Assembly: GCA_017649745.1 (NCBI GenBank)
Contig: JAGCGE010000148.1
Coordinates: 1 to 14,298 of the forward strand
From: Clostridiales bacterium
GTDB lineage: Bacteria; Bacillota_A; Clostridia; Saccharofermentanales; Saccharofermentanaceae
Length of the DNA stretch: 14,298 bases
Reading direction: 5' to 3'
The position numbers and the translations under genes are program-made. Positions 509 through 13,251 of the stretch are shown one piece after another. Within the stretch, counting starts at the first letter, position 1; the number at the start of each line of letters is the position of its first letter. The notes under the pieces were generated by a model that ran no database searches, had not been told where the DNA came from, and was given only the letters and a program-made list of their open reading frames with translations.

Positions 509-1531
509 ATGAAATTTAACAAGAAACTAACTGCCGAATTAATGGCAACAATGATGATCTTATCTGCAGGATGCAGTGATAAGAAGCCTTCTAAGACAGA
601 AGACACAGAGGATACTAAGGAGATAACTGAGGAAACTACTGAAGAGACAACTGAAGATACAGAAGCAACAGAGACAACAGAGACGACTGCTGCACCTGAG
701 CCTTCGACAGTTGTAGTTGAGAATGCTTACGAGTTTACAGAGGCTAATTTCCCTGTGCTCGACGGATCCACATCGACTAAGCCGATGGCTAGTGCGATCA
801 AGAGCCTTCTTCTTGGCACCGACAGAGAAGCAGCTGATGCTTCGATGGAGTTCCACAAGACATCTAAGTCTTTTGAATATCTGATGAACGGCTCTGCGGA
901 TCTTCTTATCGTAGCTCAGCCTAGCGCAGAAGTTTTCGAGAAGATGGAAGAAGAAAACTTCGATTATGAGATGGAGCCATTTGCTTTGGAGGCGCTCGTA
1001 TTCGTAGTTAATGAGAGCAACCCTGTTGACTCACTCACTAGAGAGCAGGTCGTTGCTATCTATAAGGGCGAGATCACGAACTGGAAGGAAGTAGGCGGCG
1101 AAGATAAGGAGATCGTAGCCGTTCAGCGTAACCACAGTTCCGGTTCCCAGGTTATGATGGATAATCTCGTCATGCAGGGTGAGGAGATGATGGAAGCTGA
1201 CACTGAGCTCATGCCGGGTGATATGGGCGGACTTATCGAGGTCGTAAAGGGATTCGATAATTCTGCTGAGGCGATCGGATATACACCATACTATTATGCT
1301 ACGAGCATGGGCATGGCAGCAGGTCTTAAGATCTTGAAGATCGATGATGTCGAGCCTAATAATGATACGATCAAGAGCGGCGATTATCCGTATATCACAG
1401 CTTATTATGTAGTTATCGATGCCAATGCTAAGGATGATTCTCCTGAGAGAAGGCTTTTCGATTGGATACTTGGTCCTGACGGCCAGAAGCTTACAGAGAT
1501 GGAAGGCTACGTTCCTGCAAAAGGAGAATGA
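509..1531 (+). CDS. PstS-like substrate-binding lipoprotein
   Basis: 340 residues. A basic start (MKFNKK) and hydrophobic segment end in LSAGC, with Cys22 the likely lipidated residue, so the protein should be anchored outside the membrane. Residues 30-66 are a Thr/Glu-rich linker. The rest reads as a type 2 periplasmic-binding fold of the phosphate-binding (PstS-like) family: DGSTST at 85-90 where the first anion loop lies, a hydrophobic strand ALEALVFVVNESNPV, the family-typical IYKGEITNWKEVGG near 185-198, and an SSGSQ anion loop near 211-215. GAGGA at 500-504 is the ribosome site. No pstC/pstA/pstB follows; the next gene is another lipoprotein with overlapping stop and start. It may therefore sense or scavenge an anion rather than feed a local transporter. 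The ligand is inferred and could be something other than phosphate. Confidence 0.85.
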   Translation: MKFNKKLTAELMATMMILSAGCSDKKPSKTEDTEDTKEITEETTEETTEDTEATETTETTAAPEPSTVVVENAYEFTEANFPVLDGSTSTKPMASAIKSLLLGTDREAADASMEFHKTSKSFEYLMNGSADLLIVAQPSAEVFEKMEEENFDYEMEPFALEALVFVVNESNPVDSLTREQVVAIYKGEITNWKEVGGEDKEIVAVQRNHSSGSQVMMDNLVMQGEEMMEADTELMPGDMGGLIEVVKGFDNSAEAIGYTPYYYATSMGMAAGLKILKIDDVEPNNDTIKSGDYPYITAYYVVIDANAKDDSPERRLFDWILGPDGQKLTEMEGYVPAKGE

Positions 1532-1536
1532 TCCCT

Positions 1537-3180
1537 ATGAAAAGAAATCTGTTTAAAATCACAACGACGGTCCTCATCGCGAGTATCGCCATGTCTTCCT
1601 GCACCTCGAAAAAGACGGACATTAAGGTTCGCCACAAAGAAGATGCGGAGATAACCGAAGAGACGGCAACAACAGAACCGACAGCGACTGAGACAACAGC
1701 TACACCGGAGCCGACAGTTCAGGTTACGACGACGAACGCATATTCAGATGCTGATGCTCCTATCGTTGTTAACTGGGATAACTATCAGAAAGCGGCTGAT
1801 CCGAAGGATTCGTATTTGTATACACGTATGTCGGATGACTATATCTCTGAATTTACACCGTCTGGTGATTACGGCAGGATCTTTCCTTATTTAGCTACAT
1901 CGACACCTGTACATTCAACTTATGGTGAGGAGGATTACATTGATGAATATGTAGATAACTACGAGAGGTCGTACGGTCTTTGTGATGAGAACGGCACGAT
2001 AATCTGTGATCCGATATTCTCATCAGCGAGCAAGTCCTACCTGATGGATTTCTATATACTGGGCAAGGGTCAGCGTCCAAATAAGAAAATTGGACTCGCT
2101 AACACCGAAGGAAGCAAGTTTACGGGCTTGATCTACGAATATGTCGACTGTGACTCTATCGACAGATTGATATTCGCTAGAGGTGACGGTGAGCTGACTG
2201 TTCTTGATGAGGATCTGAACGTTATCTTGAAAAAGCCATACAAGCTTAACTTTAATACCTTAGATTATGTCGATGACGAGTATGATCTCGGATTCAGCCA
2301 AATGATCGACGATACCCACTATGTGATCGGATTAGGTCAGGGAGAAACTACGGTTCTTGATATTACGACGGGTAATTTCACAGATACCTTCCAGAGTGTG
2401 GGATCGGATTTCCTTGTCAGGTGGGATAACGGAAATGTTTACATGGCTGATTCTGACGGAAATCCTAAGAGCGATATTTATGATGATTTTGTCTGGGGAA
2501 GCGGCATTCCGATCTTCGGCAACGACGGGTATTATTATGGCCTTGACCTTGAAGGAAATGTCATCAAGGAATTAGGTAAGTGCAACGCTCCGCAGCGCAG
2601 ATCAGCGGGTGACTATACATTTTTCTCTCCTGACGGAAAAAAGTTCACGCTTTACGATAAGGACTTTAATGAGTACGGAGAATACACTGATGAGCAGATC
2701 CTCAATGCTTATACCTGGAACGAGAATTGGGAAAACCTCAATAAGCCTTATGTGCTCGTTGACGGGAAGGTAATCGACCCTCTGACAGACGAAGTTCTCA
2801 TGGAGGGCGTAACAGGCAGTGGTTATTGTTATTTCTATCTTGGCAAAGATATGTGCGCGGTGAAGATAGATACGAAATATACTCTGTCGAACGGCAAGAC
2901 TTTTACCATATCGCAAGAATATAATTCTACGCTGCTTTTCGATGAGGAGCAGGACAAATACTACATTACCGACTGCAGAAACGATGCGCTGATCCTTTAC
3001 AGCGTTGAAGATGACAGGACTTACATCATTGAAGATATACATGATTACTATTCGTCATTTATCGCTGACAACAAGTTGTATTACCGCGCTGGTGACGATT
3101 CAACGATCTATGATATTTCTGACTTGAACAATATTCAGCCGATCTTCCATTATGTTGCTACAGATCCGATGGGAGACTGA
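1537..3180 (+). CDS. Lipoprotein with WG-repeat/propeller-like ectodomain
   Basis: 547 residues from the ATG at 1537. An in-frame ATG at 1528 overlaps the upstream stop (ATGA), but AAGGAG at 1521-1526 is about one base from it and 10 bases from 1537, and starting at 1537 gives a classic signal peptide, MKRNLFKITTTVLIASIAMSS followed by Cys22. A Thr/Glu/Pro-rich linker follows, then a beta-rich domain with repeated turns of the WG-repeat style: YGLCDENGTIICDPIF, GLANTEG, LDEDLNVILKKPY, YYGLDLEGNVIKELG and LYDKDFNEYGEY. The domain probably forms a repetitive beta sheet or propeller on the cell surface. Translation is coupled to the PstS-like gene, and the two share a linker style ending in PEP...NAY, so they probably act together. 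No enzyme motif is seen. The molecular function is unknown. Confidence 0.8.
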   Translation: MKRNLFKITTTVLIASIAMSSCTSKKTDIKVRHKEDAEITEETATTEPTATETTATPEPTVQVTTTNAYSDADAPIVVNWDNYQKAADPKDSYLYTRMSDDYISEFTPSGDYGRIFPYLATSTPVHSTYGEEDYIDEYVDNYERSYGLCDENGTIICDPIFSSASKSYLMDFYILGKGQRPNKKIGLANTEGSKFTGLIYEYVDCDSIDRLIFARGDGELTVLDEDLNVILKKPYKLNFNTLDYVDDEYDLGFSQMIDDTHYVIGLGQGETTVLDITTGNFTDTFQSVGSDFLVRWDNGNVYMADSDGNPKSDIYDDFVWGSGIPIFGNDGYYYGLDLEGNVIKELGKCNAPQRRSAGDYTFFSPDGKKFTLYDKDFNEYGEYTDEQILNAYTWNENWENLNKPYVLVDGKVIDPLTDEVLMEGVTGSGYCYFYLGKDMCAVKIDTKYTLSNGKTFTISQEYNSTLLFDEEQDKYYITDCRNDALILYSVEDDRTYIIEDIHDYYSSFIADNKLYYRAGDDSTIYDISDLNNIQPIFHYVATDPMGD

Positions 3181-6978: not shown

Positions 6979-8770
6979 TCTTCTCGTAATAGTTGAATGC
7001 AGTTTCTTCGTAAGGGATGACGTCGATTATCTCATACCCTTCGAATTCATCATTACCATCACAGAACTTGATAAAGTGCTCGCAACCTTCGATCTCTTCC
7101 ATATTGAAGTGGAAATCCCTGCCGCCTCTGTCTCTTCCGAGCTCCATGAATACGGCTGCAGTTCCGTAGCCTGCGCCCTTGGTATCAGGCGCGATCCTCG
7201 TGTCGAGATCCTCACAGAAATCTTCGAAAGGCTTATAGTCGTAAGCTCCCGCATCATGCATGCTCTTAAGCTGGGATATCAGGAACTTGCCTTCGATACC
7301 GCAGAAGAACAGACAGAGCGCAGCGTATAGCGCGAGCATAGCGTTGATAACTTTGAACTTAGCCATCGACAGCAAAAGAGCGATGCCGACAACAAAGTAC
7401 ATACTAAGTATTCCGGTTCCGCCTGATGGATTATTCACATAATAAGTTCCGATGCCAAGGCCCATAACTCCAAGCGCGAGGAAGAGAGCACCTTTCGGCT
7501 CGAGCTCCTTCTGGATGTATACCGAGTGTATACCAAGCGTCGCACAGAGGAAAAGGACGATGAAGATATGAACATAAAGCGCATTTCCTGTATCGAGCTC
7601 TTTAGATATAGTATCAACGAATCCCTGTCCCTGGAAACCGATGAGTTCCCTGATGCCCATCGCGCTGCCGCCGTGGGTCAGGTTGTAGATATTAAGTATC
7701 ATAAGGCTTCCTACAAGAGATGATGCAGCGGAGATGATAACTGACAGGAACGTGCTAAGAAGCTTCTTGTCCTTAAGAAGGCAGAAGCCGCCGTAGACTC
7801 CCCATGTTACAACACACACAGCGCCTGTCTCAGTGTTCCAGATGAGCGCCATCGTCGTGATCGATAGACCGATGAAGAAGAAACTTCTCCTGAATATCTT
7901 CTTATATGTAAGTAATGTAATAAGGAAGATAATGAGCGCAGGGAAGAACATCCTGTGCGGGAATGACTGCCAGTAGATGCTGTAAGCGGTAAGACCGTAG
8001 AGGCCCAGGCCGCCAATCGCGAAGCACTTAAGGAAGAACGGCTTGATCGTCATCATCATAGATGCTGCAAGGAAGATGAACGCAGCCGCAGTAAGGATGC
8101 CCATGATGATACCTATCGTGAAGGTGTTCATGCCGAATATCTTCATCGGAAGGTACATAAGGATCGAGTAGTGACCGTAAAGCTCGGATTCGATGCCGGT
8201 AAACGGCGCGCCGTAGTAGGTGTTGATGATCGAATCGATGTAAGCCGACGAATGGTAGATGTTGTAGCTTCGTCCAAAGGAGTAATGCGAGAAAGTGTTG
8301 ACTGTCGAACTAGTAAGGAACCACAGGCCTGACATGAGAAGGGTCAGAGCCCAGAGAAGTATCACCTTTACTTTTCGAAAATGATCATGACGGACAAATA
8401 CTGCGTAAGCCGTAAGTCCCGTCGTAAAGATCGTCGAGACGATAATGTACTTGATCGTGGTGCCGTACACGAGGTGACGGTAGATCTTGTAGTAAAGGAT
8501 CGCGAGGATGACGACGAACGGTGCCGTGATGAGTATTTTCGAGATGAGGCGCGGCTGTCTGTTGTTGAACCTTCTAAGAAGGGTGTCGGCTAAGAAGAAT
8601 GTTCCGACCCAGAGGAGCGCGAAGATGAAGTAAGCCTTGATGTTGCCGAGCGTGTGGATGCCGAGAGCGCCGTCAGGACTGTTGAAAGCGATGTACCTGA
8701 AGAGCGCTGCAGGTACCGTTCCTGCTAGTGTAGACAGGAGAAGATTAAATCTGTCGCTCTTGTGTTCCAT
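6971..8770 (-). CDS. Polytopic membrane protein, probable GT-C-type glycosyltransferase or surface-polymer protein
   Basis: 599 residues from the ATG at 8770. A TTG four codons upstream (8782) would extend the frame, but it overlaps GGAG (8780-8777), which is placed 6 bases before the ATG and so acts better as the ribosome site. About 12-14 hydrophobic segments cover most of the protein. A long outer loop near 155-210 carries a Tyr/His-rich stretch with YYGAPFTGIESELYGHYSIL, which looks like a conserved substrate loop. A soluble C-terminal tail of about 100 residues contains EDLDTRIAPDTKGAGYGTAAVFMELGRDRGG. I recognise no named family, and GT-C membership is inferred from topology, length and the neighbouring gene. 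It converges on the 3868-6978 gene with an 8-bp overlap and is divergent from the RiPP-like operon. Confidence 0.7.
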   Translation of the reverse strand: MEHKSDRFNLLLSTLAGTVPAALFRYIAFNSPDGALGIHTLGNIKAYFIFALLWVGTFFLADTLLRRFNNRQPRLISKILITAPFVVILAILYYKIYRHLVYGTTIKYIIVSTIFTTGLTAYAVFVRHDHFRKVKVILLWALTLLMSGLWFLTSSTVNTFSHYSFGRSYNIYHSSAYIDSIINTYYGAPFTGIESELYGHYSILMYLPMKIFGMNTFTIGIIMGILTAAAFIFLAASMMMTIKPFFLKCFAIGGLGLYGLTAYSIYWQSFPHRMFFPALIIFLITLLTYKKIFRRSFFFIGLSITTMALIWNTETGAVCVVTWGVYGGFCLLKDKKLLSTFLSVIISAASSLVGSLMILNIYNLTHGGSAMGIRELIGFQGQGFVDTISKELDTGNALYVHIFIVLFLCATLGIHSVYIQKELEPKGALFLALGVMGLGIGTYYVNNPSGGTGILSMYFVVGIALLLSMAKFKVINAMLALYAALCLFFCGIEGKFLISQLKSMHDAGAYDYKPFEDFCEDLDTRIAPDTKGAGYGTAAVFMELGRDRGGRDFHFNMEEIEGCEHFIKFCDGNDEFEGYEIIDVIPYEETAFNYYEKIS

Positions 8771-8796
8771 CGGTCGCTCCAAAATTTTTTAAAAAG

Positions 8797-8805
8797 ATTA
8801 TACCA
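8797..8805 (-). promoter_or_regulatory. Extended -10 promoter of the minus-strand membrane gene
   Basis: Read on the minus strand this is TGGTATAAT, a perfect extended -10. The expected start near 8790 gives a leader of about 20 bases, with GGAG at 8780-8777 and ATG at 8770. No good -35 is visible. Confidence 0.6.
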
Positions 8806-8833
8806 TTTAATGAAACCTCCGTACTTCTAATCG

Positions 8834-8854
8834 TGATATTATAGGTAAAGGAGG
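8834..8854 (+). promoter_or_regulatory. Strong ribosome site and possible extended -10 of the peptide gene
   Basis: AAAGGAGG (8847-8854) is a near-perfect Shine-Dalgarno 9 bases before the ATG at 8864, the best in the window, and suggests high expression of the small peptide. TGATATTAT (8834-8842) is a possible extended -10, but its start would fall inside the ribosome site, so the real promoter may lie elsewhere in 8783-8833. Confidence 0.5.
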
Positions 8855-8863
8855 GCGATACAA

Positions 8864-9139
8864 ATGAAGATAGAGCCTAGACATGATTACAAAAAACCAC
8901 TTTATGCAGTAGGAATGACAGCTATCCTTGGAGCTACGATGCTCATGGGAACAGCTTGTGGAGATAAAGTTAAGACTTCTCTTGAAGTAAGATCCGGTCA
9001 CAGCAAGGAAGTAGAGCTTGACGGCGCTACAACTATTATTGAAGGTGACATCGCTGAACCTGATATCGACTATGCAGGCGAGATGGCTCCTGAAGATGAT
9101 CTGGAACTTTCAGGCGACGTAGAGATAGCTGAAGGCTGA
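8864..9139 (+). CDS. Candidate RiPP precursor: small acidic lipoprotein-like peptide
   Basis: 91 residues. The N-terminus (MKIEPRHDYKKPLYAVG) is polar and basic. A hydrophobic stretch at 13-31 follows, ending in MGTAC, where Cys32 satisfies a relaxed lipobox; it is the only Cys. The remaining 59 residues are acidic (17 Asp/Glu by count). They contain repeated blocks around Gly-acidic-hydrophobic: GDIAEPD at 61-67, GEMAPED at 72-78 and GDVEIAE at 84-90, plus paired ELDG/ELSG at 51-54 and 81-84. The gene lies 3 bases before a radical SAM/SPASM enzyme and has a very strong ribosome site, the usual layout of a precursor and its maturase. I infer that the repeat region is the modified core and that the peptide may be exported and lipid-anchored. 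It may belong to the 'FibroRumin' target group, which I recall only loosely. It could instead be a small lipoprotein that is modified in place. Confidence 0.7.
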   Translation: MKIEPRHDYKKPLYAVGMTAILGATMLMGTACGDKVKTSLEVRSGHSKEVELDGATTIIEGDIAEPDIDYAGEMAPEDDLELSGDVEIAEG

Positions 9140-9142
9140 TAT

Positions 9143-10207
9143 ATGAACCTGACACTGCATCTGACAGAGAACTGCAACATGGCTTGCAGCTATTGTTTAA
9201 GAGATAAGGCCCCCAAGGATATGTCCGTGGAGGTCCTTCATAAAGCATGCGACCTCGCTTTTTCCGAAGGGACAAAGGCGGGGCTGTGTTTTTTCGGAGG
9301 GGAGCCTCTTCTTCGAAAAGACCTGATATACGATGCGCTTGACTACTGTGAGGCGAAGTCGAAAGAGACAGGTATCCCGTTCAAATGCAAGATGACGACG
9401 AACGGAACTCTTCTTGATGAGGAGTTCGTAAAGCGCGCTAAGAAGGCGAACATGGGTATCGGCCTGTCGTTCGACGGCAAGGGACAGGACATCTCGAGGC
9501 GCTTCCCTGACGGCAGTTCGACTGCGGTACTTCTCGAAACGAAGGCTAAGATGCTTCTTTCGTATATGCCTAAATCCCTGGCGATGCTGACGTTGGATCC
9601 TAAGGCTGCTTCGACATTGTCAGATTCGGTAAAGTATCTGATCAGCCTTGGATTTACGAAGATATCGACGGTCCTCGCGTACGGCAGGAACGTTACTTGG
9701 ACAGATGAGGATCTGGAGATAGTAAGAGTCGAGCTCAATAAGGTCGCCGATTTCCTGAGGGATGAATATAAGCAGGGCCGTAAGTATTACGTGGCACCTC
9801 TCATCAATAAGATCCGCGAGTGCGTAGCCGGGAAGAATCCAGCTGAGCACTGTCACCTTGGTGTAAGGCAGATGCCTGTAACTCCTGACGGTGAACTTTA
9901 TCCGTGCACATCGTTCATCAAGGACGAGGACTACTTCATGGGTACCGTTTTCGACGGCATAGACAAAGAGCGCGTCATAGCGATCGCCAAGAGGAGCAAC
10001 ACTCCGTCGACATGCGTTGACTGTGACTTGAAGAAGCGCTGCACCAATTCATGCGGCTGCGCTAACAGGATGAACACAGGCCACGAAGATCAGGTATCAC
10101 CGCTGCAGTGTACATATGAGCGCATGATAATTGAGATCGCCGACCGTCTCGGAGGCGAGCTCTACGAGTATAGCGAGAAGGAATTCGCTGAATTTTTTGC
10201 AAAATAG
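9143..10207 (+). CDS. Radical SAM/SPASM peptide maturase
   Basis: 354 residues. CNMACSYC at 11-18 is the CxxxCxxC motif that binds the SAM-cleaving 4Fe-4S cluster, and GGEP at 52-55 is the usual SAM-contact motif. The C-terminal half has a SPASM domain: C237, G250-type turn (PDGELYPC) and C255, then C291, C294, C300, C304, C306 and C323, the spacing expected for two auxiliary 4Fe-4S clusters. No separate RiPP recognition element (PqqD-like) is obvious at the N-terminus, because the protein starts directly at the barrel strand MNLTLHLTENC. The start lies 3 bases after the peptide stop, with GAAGG at 9131-9135 inside the peptide's last codons, so the two are translationally coupled. The enzyme probably installs radical-derived crosslinks or epimers on the 91-residue peptide. 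The product chemistry is unknown. Confidence 0.92.
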   Translation: MNLTLHLTENCNMACSYCLRDKAPKDMSVEVLHKACDLAFSEGTKAGLCFFGGEPLLRKDLIYDALDYCEAKSKETGIPFKCKMTTNGTLLDEEFVKRAKKANMGIGLSFDGKGQDISRRFPDGSSTAVLLETKAKMLLSYMPKSLAMLTLDPKAASTLSDSVKYLISLGFTKISTVLAYGRNVTWTDEDLEIVRVELNKVADFLRDEYKQGRKYYVAPLINKIRECVAGKNPAEHCHLGVRQMPVTPDGELYPCTSFIKDEDYFMGTVFDGIDKERVIAIAKRSNTPSTCVDCDLKKRCTNSCGCANRMNTGHEDQVSPLQCTYERMIIEIADRLGGELYEYSEKEFAEFFAK

Positions 10208-10219
10208 TATAATGGGCTC
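10208..10219 (+). promoter_or_regulatory. TATAAT just before the hydrolase start, with no ribosome site
   Basis: TATAAT (10208-10213) begins at the base after the rSAM stop codon and ends 6 bases before the ATG at 10220. No Shine-Dalgarno is present in the gap; only GGG at 10214-10216 is seen. A start point 7 bases past the box would make a leaderless mRNA. This may be chance in AT-rich sequence, and read-through from the upstream genes is equally possible. Confidence 0.3.
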
Positions 10220-11077
10220 ATGGTTTATCATGAGTCAGCAAAAGTCGACGGAAAGTCGATAACATTTACGAGATACGGGGAGTGGACCAAGGTCTGCTGC
10301 CTGTTTTTTCATGGTTTTCTCGCATCATCCGATTTTCTGCCGCCTGACGCAGACAGCGAAGGCATGTGCGTGATATCTTTCGACAGGCCGGGAATTGGTG
10401 AGTCGGATTTGATCGGAAAGTACACCATGGAAGGATTTTGCAAGATCATAACAGATATCCTTAAGGAGCACGACGTCGAAAGCGTTCATGTTTTCGGACA
10501 CAGTGCGGGAGGATATTATGCGCAGGTCTATGCACAGGAATTCCCGGACATGACAAGGACGCTCACTCTCCTGAGCAGTCTTCCGCCTCTGAATTGCGAA
10601 GAGACGGAACATCTGATGACTGATGATCTTCGTAAAAGGAGATTGCTGGTCGCGAAGGCTAAGCTCCTTACAAGGTTCTACTTCGTGTCTGCCACTAATG
10701 TCATCAACAAGAAATGCGACAGTATCGTTAAGGATCGTATCGAACTGATGGCTCCTTTCGAGCAGGAAGTCTATCGAAAACACACAGACGTTTACAAAAA
10801 CGGCCTGATCATGTCTGCGACGAAGAAAGGCAAGGGCGCTTTCTATGATGCTATCGCGCTCTTCTCTCCCAAGCCTCATCCAGTGATCGATCCCAAGATC
10901 CCCGTTTATGTATGGAATGGGGAAGCTGATACCACGACCACTGTAGAATTCGCAGAGTATATGAGTAAGGCTTATAAGGCTAAGGAACTTCATGTGATCC
11001 CTGGGGGAACGCATATGATGTTTTTCGCCGTGTGGCATGATGCAGTAAAAGAGGTAAATTGTATAAATAATCTTTAA
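10220..11077 (+). CDS. Alpha/beta hydrolase
   Basis: 285 residues with the layout of the alpha/beta hydrolase fold-1 superfamily. The N-terminal strands come first, then the oxyanion HG at 31-32 (FFHGFLAS) and the nucleophile elbow GHSAGG with Ser95. A cap region of helices covers about 125-225. The likely acid is D237 in WNGEADTTTT and the likely base H265 in GGTHMMFF. No signal peptide is seen, so it should act in the cytoplasm. It follows the radical SAM gene by 12 bases on the same strand and may therefore belong to the peptide system, for example as a protease, esterase or leader-processing enzyme, though such hydrolases are also common unlinked genes. Its start lacks a normal ribosome site. 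The fold call is secure; the substrate is unknown. Confidence 0.85.
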   Translation: MVYHESAKVDGKSITFTRYGEWTKVCCLFFHGFLASSDFLPPDADSEGMCVISFDRPGIGESDLIGKYTMEGFCKIITDILKEHDVESVHVFGHSAGGYYAQVYAQEFPDMTRTLTLLSSLPPLNCEETEHLMTDDLRKRRLLVAKAKLLTRFYFVSATNVINKKCDSIVKDRIELMAPFEQEVYRKHTDVYKNGLIMSATKKGKGAFYDAIALFSPKPHPVIDPKIPVYVWNGEADTTTTVEFAEYMSKAYKAKELHVIPGGTHMMFFAVWHDAVKEVNCINNL

Positions 11078-11081
11078 GATT

Positions 11082-11090
11082 TGGTATAAT
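11082..11090 (+). promoter_or_regulatory. Extended -10 promoter of the HD-GYP gene
   Basis: TGGTATAAT, a perfect extended -10, lies directly after the hydrolase stop (11075-11077). The predicted start near 11097 gives a leader of about 25 bases, with AAGGAG (11111-11116) 5 bases before the ATG at 11122. The best -35-like hexamer, TTGTAT at 11059-11064, is 20 bases away, too far to be convincing. Confidence 0.6.
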
Positions 11091-11121
11091 AATTTGATAG
11101 GAAGATAGATAAGGAGCTGTT

Positions 11122-13251
11122 ATGTATCGGGAGAGGAAAGGACTTAGCAGCACAGCCGTTAAGTACATCTTGCATCTGGCTGTCTTATGCTTGATCGGCA
11201 TCGGTATCAATGTCGGAATGTCGAAGCTTGTCCGTGTGACAGGCATCCCTCTTTATCTTGACGCCATTGGAACCGTTATAGTCTCATTTGTCGGCGGCGT
11301 TCTTCCGGGTATAGTTGTTGGTCTTGCTACCAATTTCATCAACAGTCTTTCAGATTATTCCGCTATCTTCTATGGCACATTAAATGTCATGATCGCAGTA
11401 TGTGCTGCATTTTTCACGAGAGACGGATTCAAAAAACGTAACATGATCCCTCTTGTCGTATCGCTTTCGATCATTGGCGGTATTCTCGGATCTATACTTA
11501 CGTGGTTCATATATGGCTTTGGTTCTGAAGGCATTACTGCTGATCTCGCTAGGAAGTTCTATGATACCTGGTGCGGCAACAGATATATCGCCCAGATGTC
11601 GGCGGACTTCCTGATCGATCTGTGTGATAAGACTTTAACCGTCGTCATCGCTTTTATCGTGGCGCGATTCATATCAAAGAATTATATAGAATGGCTTAAG
11701 GGCTTTGGCTGGCAGCAGTCCAGGCTTACTGACGAGCAGCTTAAGAAGATCAACAAATCTCACGTAAGGCAGATGTCCATTAGAGCGAAGATCTTGATCC
11801 TTCTTTCTGTGGCGATCGCAGTCATCGCTATTGCAGCAGTTACAATAGGTTATTACATCTTTAAGCAGAGCACGGTAAGTGACCATGAGCAGTTCGGTAT
11901 GGGTATCGTAACTAACTGCAGTTACTACCTTGATCCTGAGATGGTCGATACTTATATCGAGCAGGGTGAAGATGCCCCTGGATATAAGGAAACTTATGAC
12001 TATTTCCAGAAGTTCCAGCAAAGTTCCGACGATATCGAATATCTGTATGTATATCAGATAAGAGAGGACGGCTGTCACGTCGTTTTCGATGTTGATACTG
12101 AGGACTTAGAAGGCGGTAATCCGGGAGACGTAGTACCGTTCGATGAATCATTCGAAGAACTTAAGGATGATCTTATCGCAGGTAAGCCAATAGAACCTAA
12201 GGTAACAAACGACACCTACGGATGGCTCCTTACGATCTATAAGCCGATCTATAACAGCGAGGGAAGATGCGTATGCTACATAGGCATCGATATCTCGATG
12301 CATCAGCTCGAACACAGCATCTACGGGTATCTTGCTAAGCAGGTATCGTTGTTCCTCGGATTCTTTATCCTCGTTCTCTGCGCAGGTCTCTGGCTTGCTA
12401 ACTACAACATCATCTATCCACTTAATGCGATGTCTTATGCGGCTAGTGCATTTGCTTACAATTCGACTGCCGAACGTAACGAGAGCGTCAAGAGGATCAC
12501 GGATCTTCATATTCACACGGGCGACGAGCTAGAGAACCTCTACACGGCTTATGAGAGAACTACTGTCGAGAGTATGCTCTTCCTTAATGAGAGCAGACGT
12601 AAGTCGAAGGTCATCGATAAGCTTCAGACAGGACTTATCATGGTACTCGCAGATATGGTCGAGAGCCGCGACAAGGGAACGGGCGACCATATCAAGAAGA
12701 CGGCAGCTTATACGAGCATAATCCTCATAAGGCTTAAGGAGAAGGGCGAGTTCCCTGATATCATCACAGGCTCTTACATCGACGACGTTGTTAAGTCAGC
12801 GCCTCTCCACGATATCGGTAAGATCAGCGTTCCTGACGCGATCCTTAATAAGCCGGGAAGGCTTGAAGCATCAGAATATGAGATCATGAAGAACCATACA
12901 GTTGCCGGTTCCGATATCATCATGAAGGTTATCGATAACGTCTCGGAGGCAGGTTATCTTGAAGAAGCCAAGAACCTCGCGAGATTCCATCATGAGAAGT
13001 ACGACGGTACAGGTTATCCGACAGGCCTTAAGGGTGAGGAGATACCTCTTTCTGCGAGAGTCATGGCCGTGGCAGATGTTTTCGATGCCCTCGTATCCAG
13101 AAGAAGCTACAAGGATCCTATGTCATTTGATGAGGTCATGCAGATCATCATCGACGGTAAGGGCACGCATTTCGACCCTAAGGTCGTGGACGCTTTCGTG
13201 GACATGAAAGAGGAAGTCAGAAGCGTTGCTGAGGCTTTCAACAACAGATAA
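11122..13251 (+). CDS. Membrane sensor with ECF-S-like module, Cache-like ectodomain and HD-GYP phosphodiesterase
   Basis: 709 residues. Residues 13-190 contain five or six membrane helices resembling the substrate-binding S component of ECF vitamin transporters, with LYLDAIGTVIVSFVGGVLPGI near 44-64 as the typical segment. A helix at about 222-247, an extracellular Cache-like region (about 250-405) and a second helix at about 408-426 follow, then a HAMP/coiled linker to about 505. The C-terminus is an HD-GYP domain with H523, H563-D564 (HDIGK), H623-H624 and GTGYP ending at Pro633, all key metal and family residues present. HD-GYP enzymes hydrolyse cyclic di-GMP to pGpG or GMP. No GGDEF domain is present, so the protein should lower c-di-GMP in response to an external or membrane ligand. 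It has its own ribosome site (AAGGAG) and an extended -10 promoter. The domain calls are confident except the ligand. Confidence 0.9.
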   Translation: MYRERKGLSSTAVKYILHLAVLCLIGIGINVGMSKLVRVTGIPLYLDAIGTVIVSFVGGVLPGIVVGLATNFINSLSDYSAIFYGTLNVMIAVCAAFFTRDGFKKRNMIPLVVSLSIIGGILGSILTWFIYGFGSEGITADLARKFYDTWCGNRYIAQMSADFLIDLCDKTLTVVIAFIVARFISKNYIEWLKGFGWQQSRLTDEQLKKINKSHVRQMSIRAKILILLSVAIAVIAIAAVTIGYYIFKQSTVSDHEQFGMGIVTNCSYYLDPEMVDTYIEQGEDAPGYKETYDYFQKFQQSSDDIEYLYVYQIREDGCHVVFDVDTEDLEGGNPGDVVPFDESFEELKDDLIAGKPIEPKVTNDTYGWLLTIYKPIYNSEGRCVCYIGIDISMHQLEHSIYGYLAKQVSLFLGFFILVLCAGLWLANYNIIYPLNAMSYAASAFAYNSTAERNESVKRITDLHIHTGDELENLYTAYERTTVESMLFLNESRRKSKVIDKLQTGLIMVLADMVESRDKGTGDHIKKTAAYTSIILIRLKEKGEFPDIITGSYIDDVVKSAPLHDIGKISVPDAILNKPGRLEASEYEIMKNHTVAGSDIIMKVIDNVSEAGYLEEAKNLARFHHEKYDGTGYPTGLKGEEIPLSARVMAVADVFDALVSRRSYKDPMSFDEVMQIIIDGKGTHFDPKVVDAFVDMKEEVRSVAEAFNNR

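Follow-up and report, generated by a model that had tools for sequence, protein, structure and literature searches.

What might a radical S-adenosylmethionine (SAM) enzyme do next to a peptide that resembles a small lipoprotein? This question is raised by a gene pair on contig JAGCGE010000148.1 of a Clostridiales gut bacterium of the family Saccharofermentanaceae, analyzed over a stretch of 14,298 nucleotides referred to below as the window. The first gene (8864..9139, + strand), assigned from its open reading frame (ORF) and its homologues, encodes a lipoprotein-like peptide of 91 residues and is preceded by the Shine-Dalgarno sequence AAAGGAGG (8847..8854, +), read from the sequence, whose anti-Shine-Dalgarno pairing of −12.2 kcal/mol is the best of ten ORFs scored in the window (the next reaches −8.9 kcal/mol). 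After a spacing of only 3 bases follows the gene of a radical SAM/SPASM enzyme of 354 residues (9143..10207, +), a barrel without N-terminal extension, whose ribosome site of only −3.7 kcal/mol is what would be expected for translational coupling over such a gap. The initial annotation of this DNA had combined both with a hydrolase of 285 residues (10220..11077), 12 bases behind the enzyme gene, into one cassette; the coordinates, sizes, and gaps that it gave for the three ORFs and the strongest ribosome site that it saw at the peptide gene, here among the ten ORFs scored, are confirmed. Comparison with related loci revealed that the conserved unit consists of two genes, substrate and radical SAM/SPASM enzyme, and suggests that this unit is probably a dedicated modification system for surface lipoproteins, in which the signal peptide of the substrate would also guide the enzyme.

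The linkage of the two genes was followed through the best 80 of 160 loci from bacterial genomes, by title mostly rumen and gut Clostridia, whose enzymes display 52–80% identity to the window enzyme over the best segment and several of which are cut by contig ends; together with the window these make 81 loci. With a leader profile built from substrates of the same loci, 116 upstream substrate copies were detected in 74 of the 81 loci, one to five per locus and two to five in 30 of them, with an overlap or a spacing of no more than 49 bases between the closest substrate gene and the enzyme gene in 73 of these 74 loci. Six of the seven remaining loci have less than 160 bases of contig upstream, while the genome of the seventh (L050, genome G094) encodes a leader-bearing substrate elsewhere, 108 residues long with the motifs LMG, IAG, and IDG. 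Enzyme homologues consistently lacking such a peptide, named beforehand as the observation that would speak against a peptide and maturase unit, were looked for and did not occur. Other neighbor families (ORFs of at least 80 residues) are found in no more than nine of the 81 loci, a number reached by an ABC-type ATPase family located both up- and downstream of the enzyme. Relatives of the hydrolase are encoded in none of the 80 related loci (tblastn, E 1e-5; 73 loci with at least 1.5 kb downstream), so that its place in the cassette is lost and it is probably an accidental neighbor. Three further proteins of the window, one CarD-like and two membrane proteins encoded upstream, are likewise without relatives throughout the 80 loci, and a relative of the HD-domain protein is encoded in six.

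Homologues of the window peptide amounted to 7 proteins by sequence search and 291 by profile search, and among the 120 of 291 listed the name was “hypothetical protein” wherever one was given; this profile contains the motif described below, and motif counts on 107 of these proteins are not independent of it. The arrangement of substrates also varies between loci. At L020:6373-7996 (+), five tandem substrate genes with differing cores are followed by one enzyme gene. In 13 loci (L019, L020, L021, L023, L024, L027, L029, L031, L035, L038, L039, L042, and L046), the nearest substrate is a protein of 65–99 residues with ITAGIV or ITDGIV near its C-terminus; with a looser match in L076 this type accounts for 14 of the 74 nearest and none of the 42 other upstream substrates, and possibly represents a second substrate type.

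The feature common to the substrates is a leader of about 32 residues with the pattern MKIxPxKxYKKPxYA, a hydrophobic stretch, and a Cys. Alignment of 29 diverse leaders revealed that Met1, Pro12, and Cys32 are invariant and that Ile3, Tyr14, and Ala15 are conserved in at least 90%. The n-regions of signal peptides are usually free of such conservation, and for this reason the leader n-region, represented in the window by MKIEPRHDYKKPLYA (residues 1–15, 8864..8908, +), is read as the proposed recognition element for the enzyme within the signal peptide. Cys32 (8957..8959, +), which is indeed the sole Cys of the window peptide, is the proposed site of lipidation and of signal peptidase II. The lipobox consensus is [LVI][ASTVI][GAS]C, and 85 of the 115 upstream substrates fit the closely similar pattern [LVI][ASTVIG][GAS]C; Lgt and LspA are both encoded in eight of eight related genomes. 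The lipid-anchored product suggested earlier is rated probable.

Behind the Cys lies an acidic region, rich in Thr and Pro and of variable length, with a recurring hydrophobic-x-Gly motif. Its first position is occupied by Leu (57%), Tyr (18%), or Ile (12%), and hydrophobic residues alternate on both sides (−2, 0, +4, +6). In the 115 upstream substrates, L-x-G was counted 277 times versus 58.6 in shuffled sequences (z 31) and Y-x-G 86 times versus 30.7, where the shuffles preserve composition only. Since I-x-G and F-x-G are at the level expected by chance and V-x-G is depleted, Leu and Tyr define the motif; hydrophobic-Gly pairs lacking the spacer residue are also depleted. When every residue pair was scanned over spacings of 1–12 with no prior choice, L(+2)G ranked first (z 29.8, 97 non-redundant cores). 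The motif is also constrained between relatives. In 27 substrate pairs, each used once, identity at the motif Gly reaches 97.0%, and its codons display 3 non-synonymous and 33 synonymous changes (non/syn 0.09), whereas the linkers are 70.5% identical with 426 and 236 such changes (non/syn 1.81), this ratio being a raw count of changed codons and not a dN/dS value. Gly outside the motif was kept in 91 of 118 cases, and Leu or Tyr in 74 of 80 at the first motif position versus 70 of 112 elsewhere. The spacing of the motifs is irregular.

Four such motifs (LDG, IEG, YAG, and LSG) are found in the window peptide. Briefly, Leu52-Asp-Gly54 (9017..9025, +) is supported by the enrichment and constraint of the motif in the family, Ile59-Glu-Gly61 (9038..9046, +) is less sure because Ile-x-Gly is not enriched in the family, Tyr70-Ala-Gly72 (9071..9079, +) belongs to the enriched Y-x-G type, and Leu82-Ser-Gly84 (9107..9115, +) is a sequence reading. 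In 41 of the 115 upstream substrates, the window peptide included, no Cys follows the leader Cys, and in 14 of the 74 loci no adjacent substrate has one. Cys thioethers therefore cannot be the shared chemistry, as had been concluded earlier for the window peptide, while individual Cys-bearing substrates could still form them. Splicease-type chemistry, which acts at Tyr-Gly, was also considered and rejected, as YG occurs only 19 times in the cores versus 485 occurrences of hydrophobic-x-G and is hence not the shared motif.

The association of leader and enzyme extends to whole genomes. Among 115 genomes of one family, the leader is present in 47 of 47 with a close enzyme and in one of 68 without (Fisher p 1e-31, a value inflated by genome relatedness). 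Close and weaker enzyme matches were divided at E 1e-140, a threshold set after the gap from 3e-143 to 3e-103 had been seen, and the two weak matches to the leader in G108 and G120 (E about 1e-5, in frames of approximately 1,040 residues) were left out; counting them would give three of 68. Of the 47 genomes, 45 have just one close enzyme, and a leader-only search of 14 whole genomes detected strong leader genes outside the contig or region of the enzyme in four (G002, G004, G006, and G008).

Proteins of 190–410 residues also carry the leader. Altogether, 27 distinct leader-bearing proteins are not directly upstream of an enzyme, 17 of them long (at least 160 residues) and 10 short, a set that includes a convergent enzyme neighbor (L148), a protein of the enzyme-less genome G064 (L143), an interrupted frame (L147), and several orthologues. 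At a distance of up to 60 residues from the Cys, an [LY]xG motif is present in 16 of the 17 long and seven of the 10 short proteins versus nine of 32 ordinary lipoproteins of the same loci, and its density behind the Cys is 3.6 per 100 residues in upstream substrates versus 0.52 in these ordinary lipoproteins. Ten of the long leader-bearing lipoproteins gave no Pfam hit over cutoff. An AlphaFold2 model of one long substrate displayed low confidence up to about residue 110, where most of the motifs lie, and a confident domain after about residue 120, and the motif thus seems to be part of tethers; for the C-terminal domain of the L070 substrate, the best Foldseek match had an E of 0.046, the domain being modeled within the whole protein, with much of the model of low confidence.

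Some of these lipoproteins deserve separate description. Those at L136:1851-3011 (−), L137:1662-3433 (+), and L138:1045-2822 (−) are remote from the enzyme, and L137 and L138 each contain a neighboring pair of them; one protein of each pair has a metallopeptidase-like HELTH motif (identified by eye), and the L136 copy is without Pfam hit. Another, at L059:5783-6781 (+), has a weak leucine-rich-repeat likeness (LRR_14, E 4.9e-6, below cutoff), and its gene directly precedes another long substrate and the enzyme. The lipoprotein of the enzyme-less genome (G064:C144, L143:2204-2803) has close relatives in enzyme-bearing genomes, namely L133 in G091 and L134 in G077.

A similar arrangement is found in a sister clade of enzymes with 33.5–41.1% identity from the same family of genomes, which occupies one side of a branch with support 100/99 in a tree that omits three of 80 loci (internal stop or short length) and for which the program warned of long branches. 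In the 19 sister loci examined, out of 33 places with a weaker enzyme, an upstream substrate with a different leader is present in all 19, containing Tyr-Pro in 19 and Pro-x-Tyr-Pro in 16 (L152–L154 have Ala there), a pattern set after the sequences had been viewed. A Cys follows a hydrophobic stretch in 19 of 19, clear hydrophobic-x-Gly motifs occur in 16 of 19, often with Asp or Glu next, and the residue-pair scan again placed L(+2)G on top (z 13.9, 16 non-redundant cores). A change of leader has thus accompanied the change of enzyme, whereas the motif persisted, an argument for this motif as the target of the enzyme family.

These data provide a strong computational case for the substrates. 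Ribosomal substrate, conserved leader, variable core, and adjacent modifying enzyme are all seen, as in a ribosomally synthesized and post-translationally modified peptide (RiPP) system, and the computed basis comprises linkage, co-occurrence, a common leader, an enriched and constrained motif, no other conserved genes, and Lgt and LspA in relatives. From these we infer the action of the enzyme on the motif, the order of steps, and lipidation. In the proposed route, the lipoprotein signal peptide would double as RiPP leader, with its n-region MKIxPxKxYKKPxYA recruiting the enzyme in the cytosol. The enzyme would then modify the hydrophobic-x-Gly repeats, for the most part those of the Leu-x-Gly and Tyr-x-Gly types, along the flexible acidic region that follows the Cys, the predicted sites in the window peptide being LDG, YAG, LSG, and perhaps IEG. 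Export by Sec and lipidation of the Cys by Lgt would follow, after which signal peptidase II (LspA) would remove the leader and thereby serve as leader peptidase, so that no dedicated transporter or protease would be needed; the presence of Lgt and LspA together with the lack of a conserved transporter or protease suggests that normal lipoprotein processing completes maturation. Held at the surface by its lipid, the product would remain there as a modified tether, either by itself (short substrates) or together with a folded domain (long substrates, often encoded elsewhere in the genome).

Regarding the chemistry, conservation between relatives is strongest at the Gly, which makes hydrogen abstraction at or beside it the best guess and the route that would be most likely. 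Chemistry at Gly is nevertheless put forward only as a tentative and rather doubtful assignment, with epimerization or cross-linking of neighboring residues as possible alternatives. Leu is more frequent than Tyr at the first position and the two have little reactivity in common, so that this residue looks more like one held in a pocket than like a cross-link partner.

Several observations weigh against the substrate and route model. The window lipobox is imperfect (GTAC, Gly at −3), a qualification of the lipobox-like site reported initially; in addition, 30 of the 115 upstream substrates miss the lipobox pattern, and the nearest substrate of L069 has no Cys. I-x-G occurs 58 times versus 51.8 in shuffles and V-x-G only 28 times versus 75.6, hydrophobic-x-Gly is missing from 10 of the 115 upstream substrates, and the sister substrates L155, L156, and L169 match the motif poorly. 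Genome G064, without a detected enzyme, has a leader-bearing protein; this genome may be incomplete, or the enzyme may have been lost. The 17 long proteins include several orthologues, and L133, L134, and L143 have LSGR beside the Cys as their only [LY]xG; with a stricter motif pattern the comparison becomes 15 of 18 (one duplicate) versus 11 of 32. Lastly, the motif could be needed for a function at the surface and not for the enzyme.

This last point leads to the alternative that survives best, in which the tethers owe their hydrophobic-x-Gly repeats to selection outside the cell, for structure or binding, and the enzyme acts on another part of the same proteins, for example a residue near the Cys or a single linker site. 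The motif and its flanks alternate hydrophobic residues in the manner of a beta strand and could serve folding or binding, and one substrate gave a weak, sub-threshold Bactofilin match (E 0.05). However, the motif tracks the enzyme over two clades with differing leaders, it is kept in the tethers of unrelated long lipoproteins and is sparse in the ordinary lipoproteins of the same loci, and its irregular spacing is unlike that of a beta-solenoid, which makes this explanation unlikely.

The second alternative is a conventional secreted RiPP: after modification and cleavage, the peptide would leave the cell as a small antimicrobial or signal, and the hydrolase would either tailor it or remove the leader. 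Such a system would agree with the position of a small peptide adjoining a SPASM maturase and with the hydrolase so close downstream. This is improbable, as the hydrolase is confined to the window among these loci, no transporter, protease, or immunity gene recurs among ORFs of at least 80 residues (even the ABC-type ATPase family reaches only 9/81 loci), and the leader ends at a conserved lipobox-type Cys and is shared with proteins of up to 410 residues.

The third alternative, a PapB-like ranthipeptide or sactipeptide system with Cys thioethers to Asp or Glu, depends on the placement of the enzyme among known families. The window enzyme has the TIM-barrel core and the cysteines of a radical SAM/SPASM enzyme, all cluster cysteines being present as initially described. 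The CX3CX2C motif (Cys11, 15, and 18; 9173..9196, +) has Cys15 and Cys18 invariant and Cys11 conserved in at least 90% of 55 sequences, and the seven-Cys SPASM motif (Cys237, 255, 291, 294, 300, 304, and 323; 9851..10111, +), for two auxiliary clusters, is invariant in the same 55, which include two sister enzymes. The enzyme remained below the cutoff of all of its best 25 of 78 NCBIfam models. The nearest, PapB (NF047865), gave 187.3 bits versus a cutoff of 340, and four relatives gave 175–198. Likeness to PapB lies in a SPASM maturase with a leader-directed peptide and several modification sites; in the available part of PMC9413430, PapB makes six links in PapA. PapB requires Cys with Asp or Glu, whereas many cores of the present system are Cys-free, and the PapA leader is not described there as a lipoprotein signal peptide. 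Membership was rejected on the score and on the window peptide, which without a Cys after Cys32 has no Cys and Asp/Glu pairs. With 41 of 115 substrates Cys-free behind the leader Cys, 14 of 74 loci without any such Cys in adjacent substrates, and a thioether on Cys32 itself competing with lipidation, this alternative is even less probable than a secreted RiPP. An accidental or regulatory linkage, with no action of the enzyme on the neighboring peptides, is scarcely tenable, for although both families abound in one gut clade and could be held together by shared descent, the overlap or short gap in 73 of 74 loci, the rarity of other neighbor families, the substrate in trans of the sole enzyme lacking an adjacent one, and the pairing that persists in a clade at 34–41% identity all contradict it.

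Other candidate families were equally rejected. The overlap with FibroRumin (TIGR04136) suggested in the initial annotation was dropped, as a relative (L010) reached 43.8 bits versus a cutoff of 400 and the window enzyme does not have this model among its 25 best of 78 hits, the 25th having 47.4 bits. For TIGR04133 (rSAM_w_lipo) the window enzyme scored 47.4 bits versus 425. We take this model to describe the “rSAM/lipoprotein system” with a lipoprotein partner family, presumably found in Bacteroidetes; pairing by name a radical SAM/SPASM enzyme with a lipoprotein, it is conceptually the closest precedent, with another enzyme family and another substrate. On the substrate side, 13 proteins searched against NCBIfam gave no match over cutoff, and 11 searched against Pfam gave no family over cutoff.

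Structurally characterized maturases also differ. CteB (PDB 5WGG/5WHY), presumably the thioether-forming maturase of SCIFF peptides, has Cys-rich substrates, which the present system lacks; its alignment with the window enzyme starts at CteB residue 94, and the N-terminal part, which we take to be an RRE-type leader-binding domain, is without counterpart in the window enzyme. ChlB (PDB 9GM3/9GMC), whose structure includes the leader of its own precursor, has 17% identity to the window enzyme. TigB/TigE (TigE being PDB 8VPO) is presumably a repeat-motif radical SAM RiPP system, whose motif, leader, and export we take to be unlike those found here. Phage records contain distant enzyme relatives only (the three listed have 28–29% identity, and all 42 are below 60%).

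The surroundings of the pair in the window add a few features. A terminator-like hairpin (10171-10200) lies at the end of the enzyme gene, based on a consensus match only (4 found versus 2.0 in shuffles), and a scan of 8600-11200 for sigma-70 promoters found none. Far upstream, two lipoprotein-like genes without the special leader overlap by 4 bases (509-1531 and 1528-3180, +), the first being PBP-like (PF12849). Downstream, the gene at 11122-13251 (+) encodes a protein whose N-terminus resembles the S-component of an energy-coupling factor transporter (CD3073-like, 59.5 bits, below the cutoff of 180) and is joined to an HD_5/HD-GYP-type domain of the sort found in c-di-GMP phosphodiesterases. 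The S-component part may act as a sensor, and a relative in L038 displays 42% identity over 701 of 709 residues.

Leader-guided substrates with multiple sites are already known for SPASM maturases; what would be new in this system is that a signal peptide takes the role of the leader and that full-size lipoproteins are targeted. No account of an enzyme of this kind paired with a lipoprotein-like substrate was found in open-licence PMC literature, where absence is weak evidence; the customizing of lipoproteins by a radical enzyme would be widespread, yet apparently undescribed. Taken together, the initial reading retains its peptide and maturase unit, its probable lipid anchor, and its core without Cys thioethers, and loses the hydrolase and the FibroRumin link; beyond it go the leader role of the signal peptide, the recurring Leu/Tyr-x-Gly, and the leader-bearing lipoproteins far from the enzyme. 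In its fullest form, which is quite possible if not quite probable, one enzyme, single in most genomes, reads a special signal peptide and changes the Gly of Leu/Tyr-x-Gly in the membrane-proximal tethers of many lipoproteins throughout the genome, with signal peptidase II as leader peptidase and a product that stays permanently on the surface. If true, a signal peptide would serve a radical enzyme as leader, ordinary lipoprotein processing would replace the protease and exporter of a RiPP, and the targets would include full-size surface proteins. A precise substrate motif is thereby offered for a large enzyme family of rumen and gut Clostridia, pointing to chemistry on Cys-free, Gly-centered motifs; should the model hold, the benefit of such a modification to surface tethers would become a further question.

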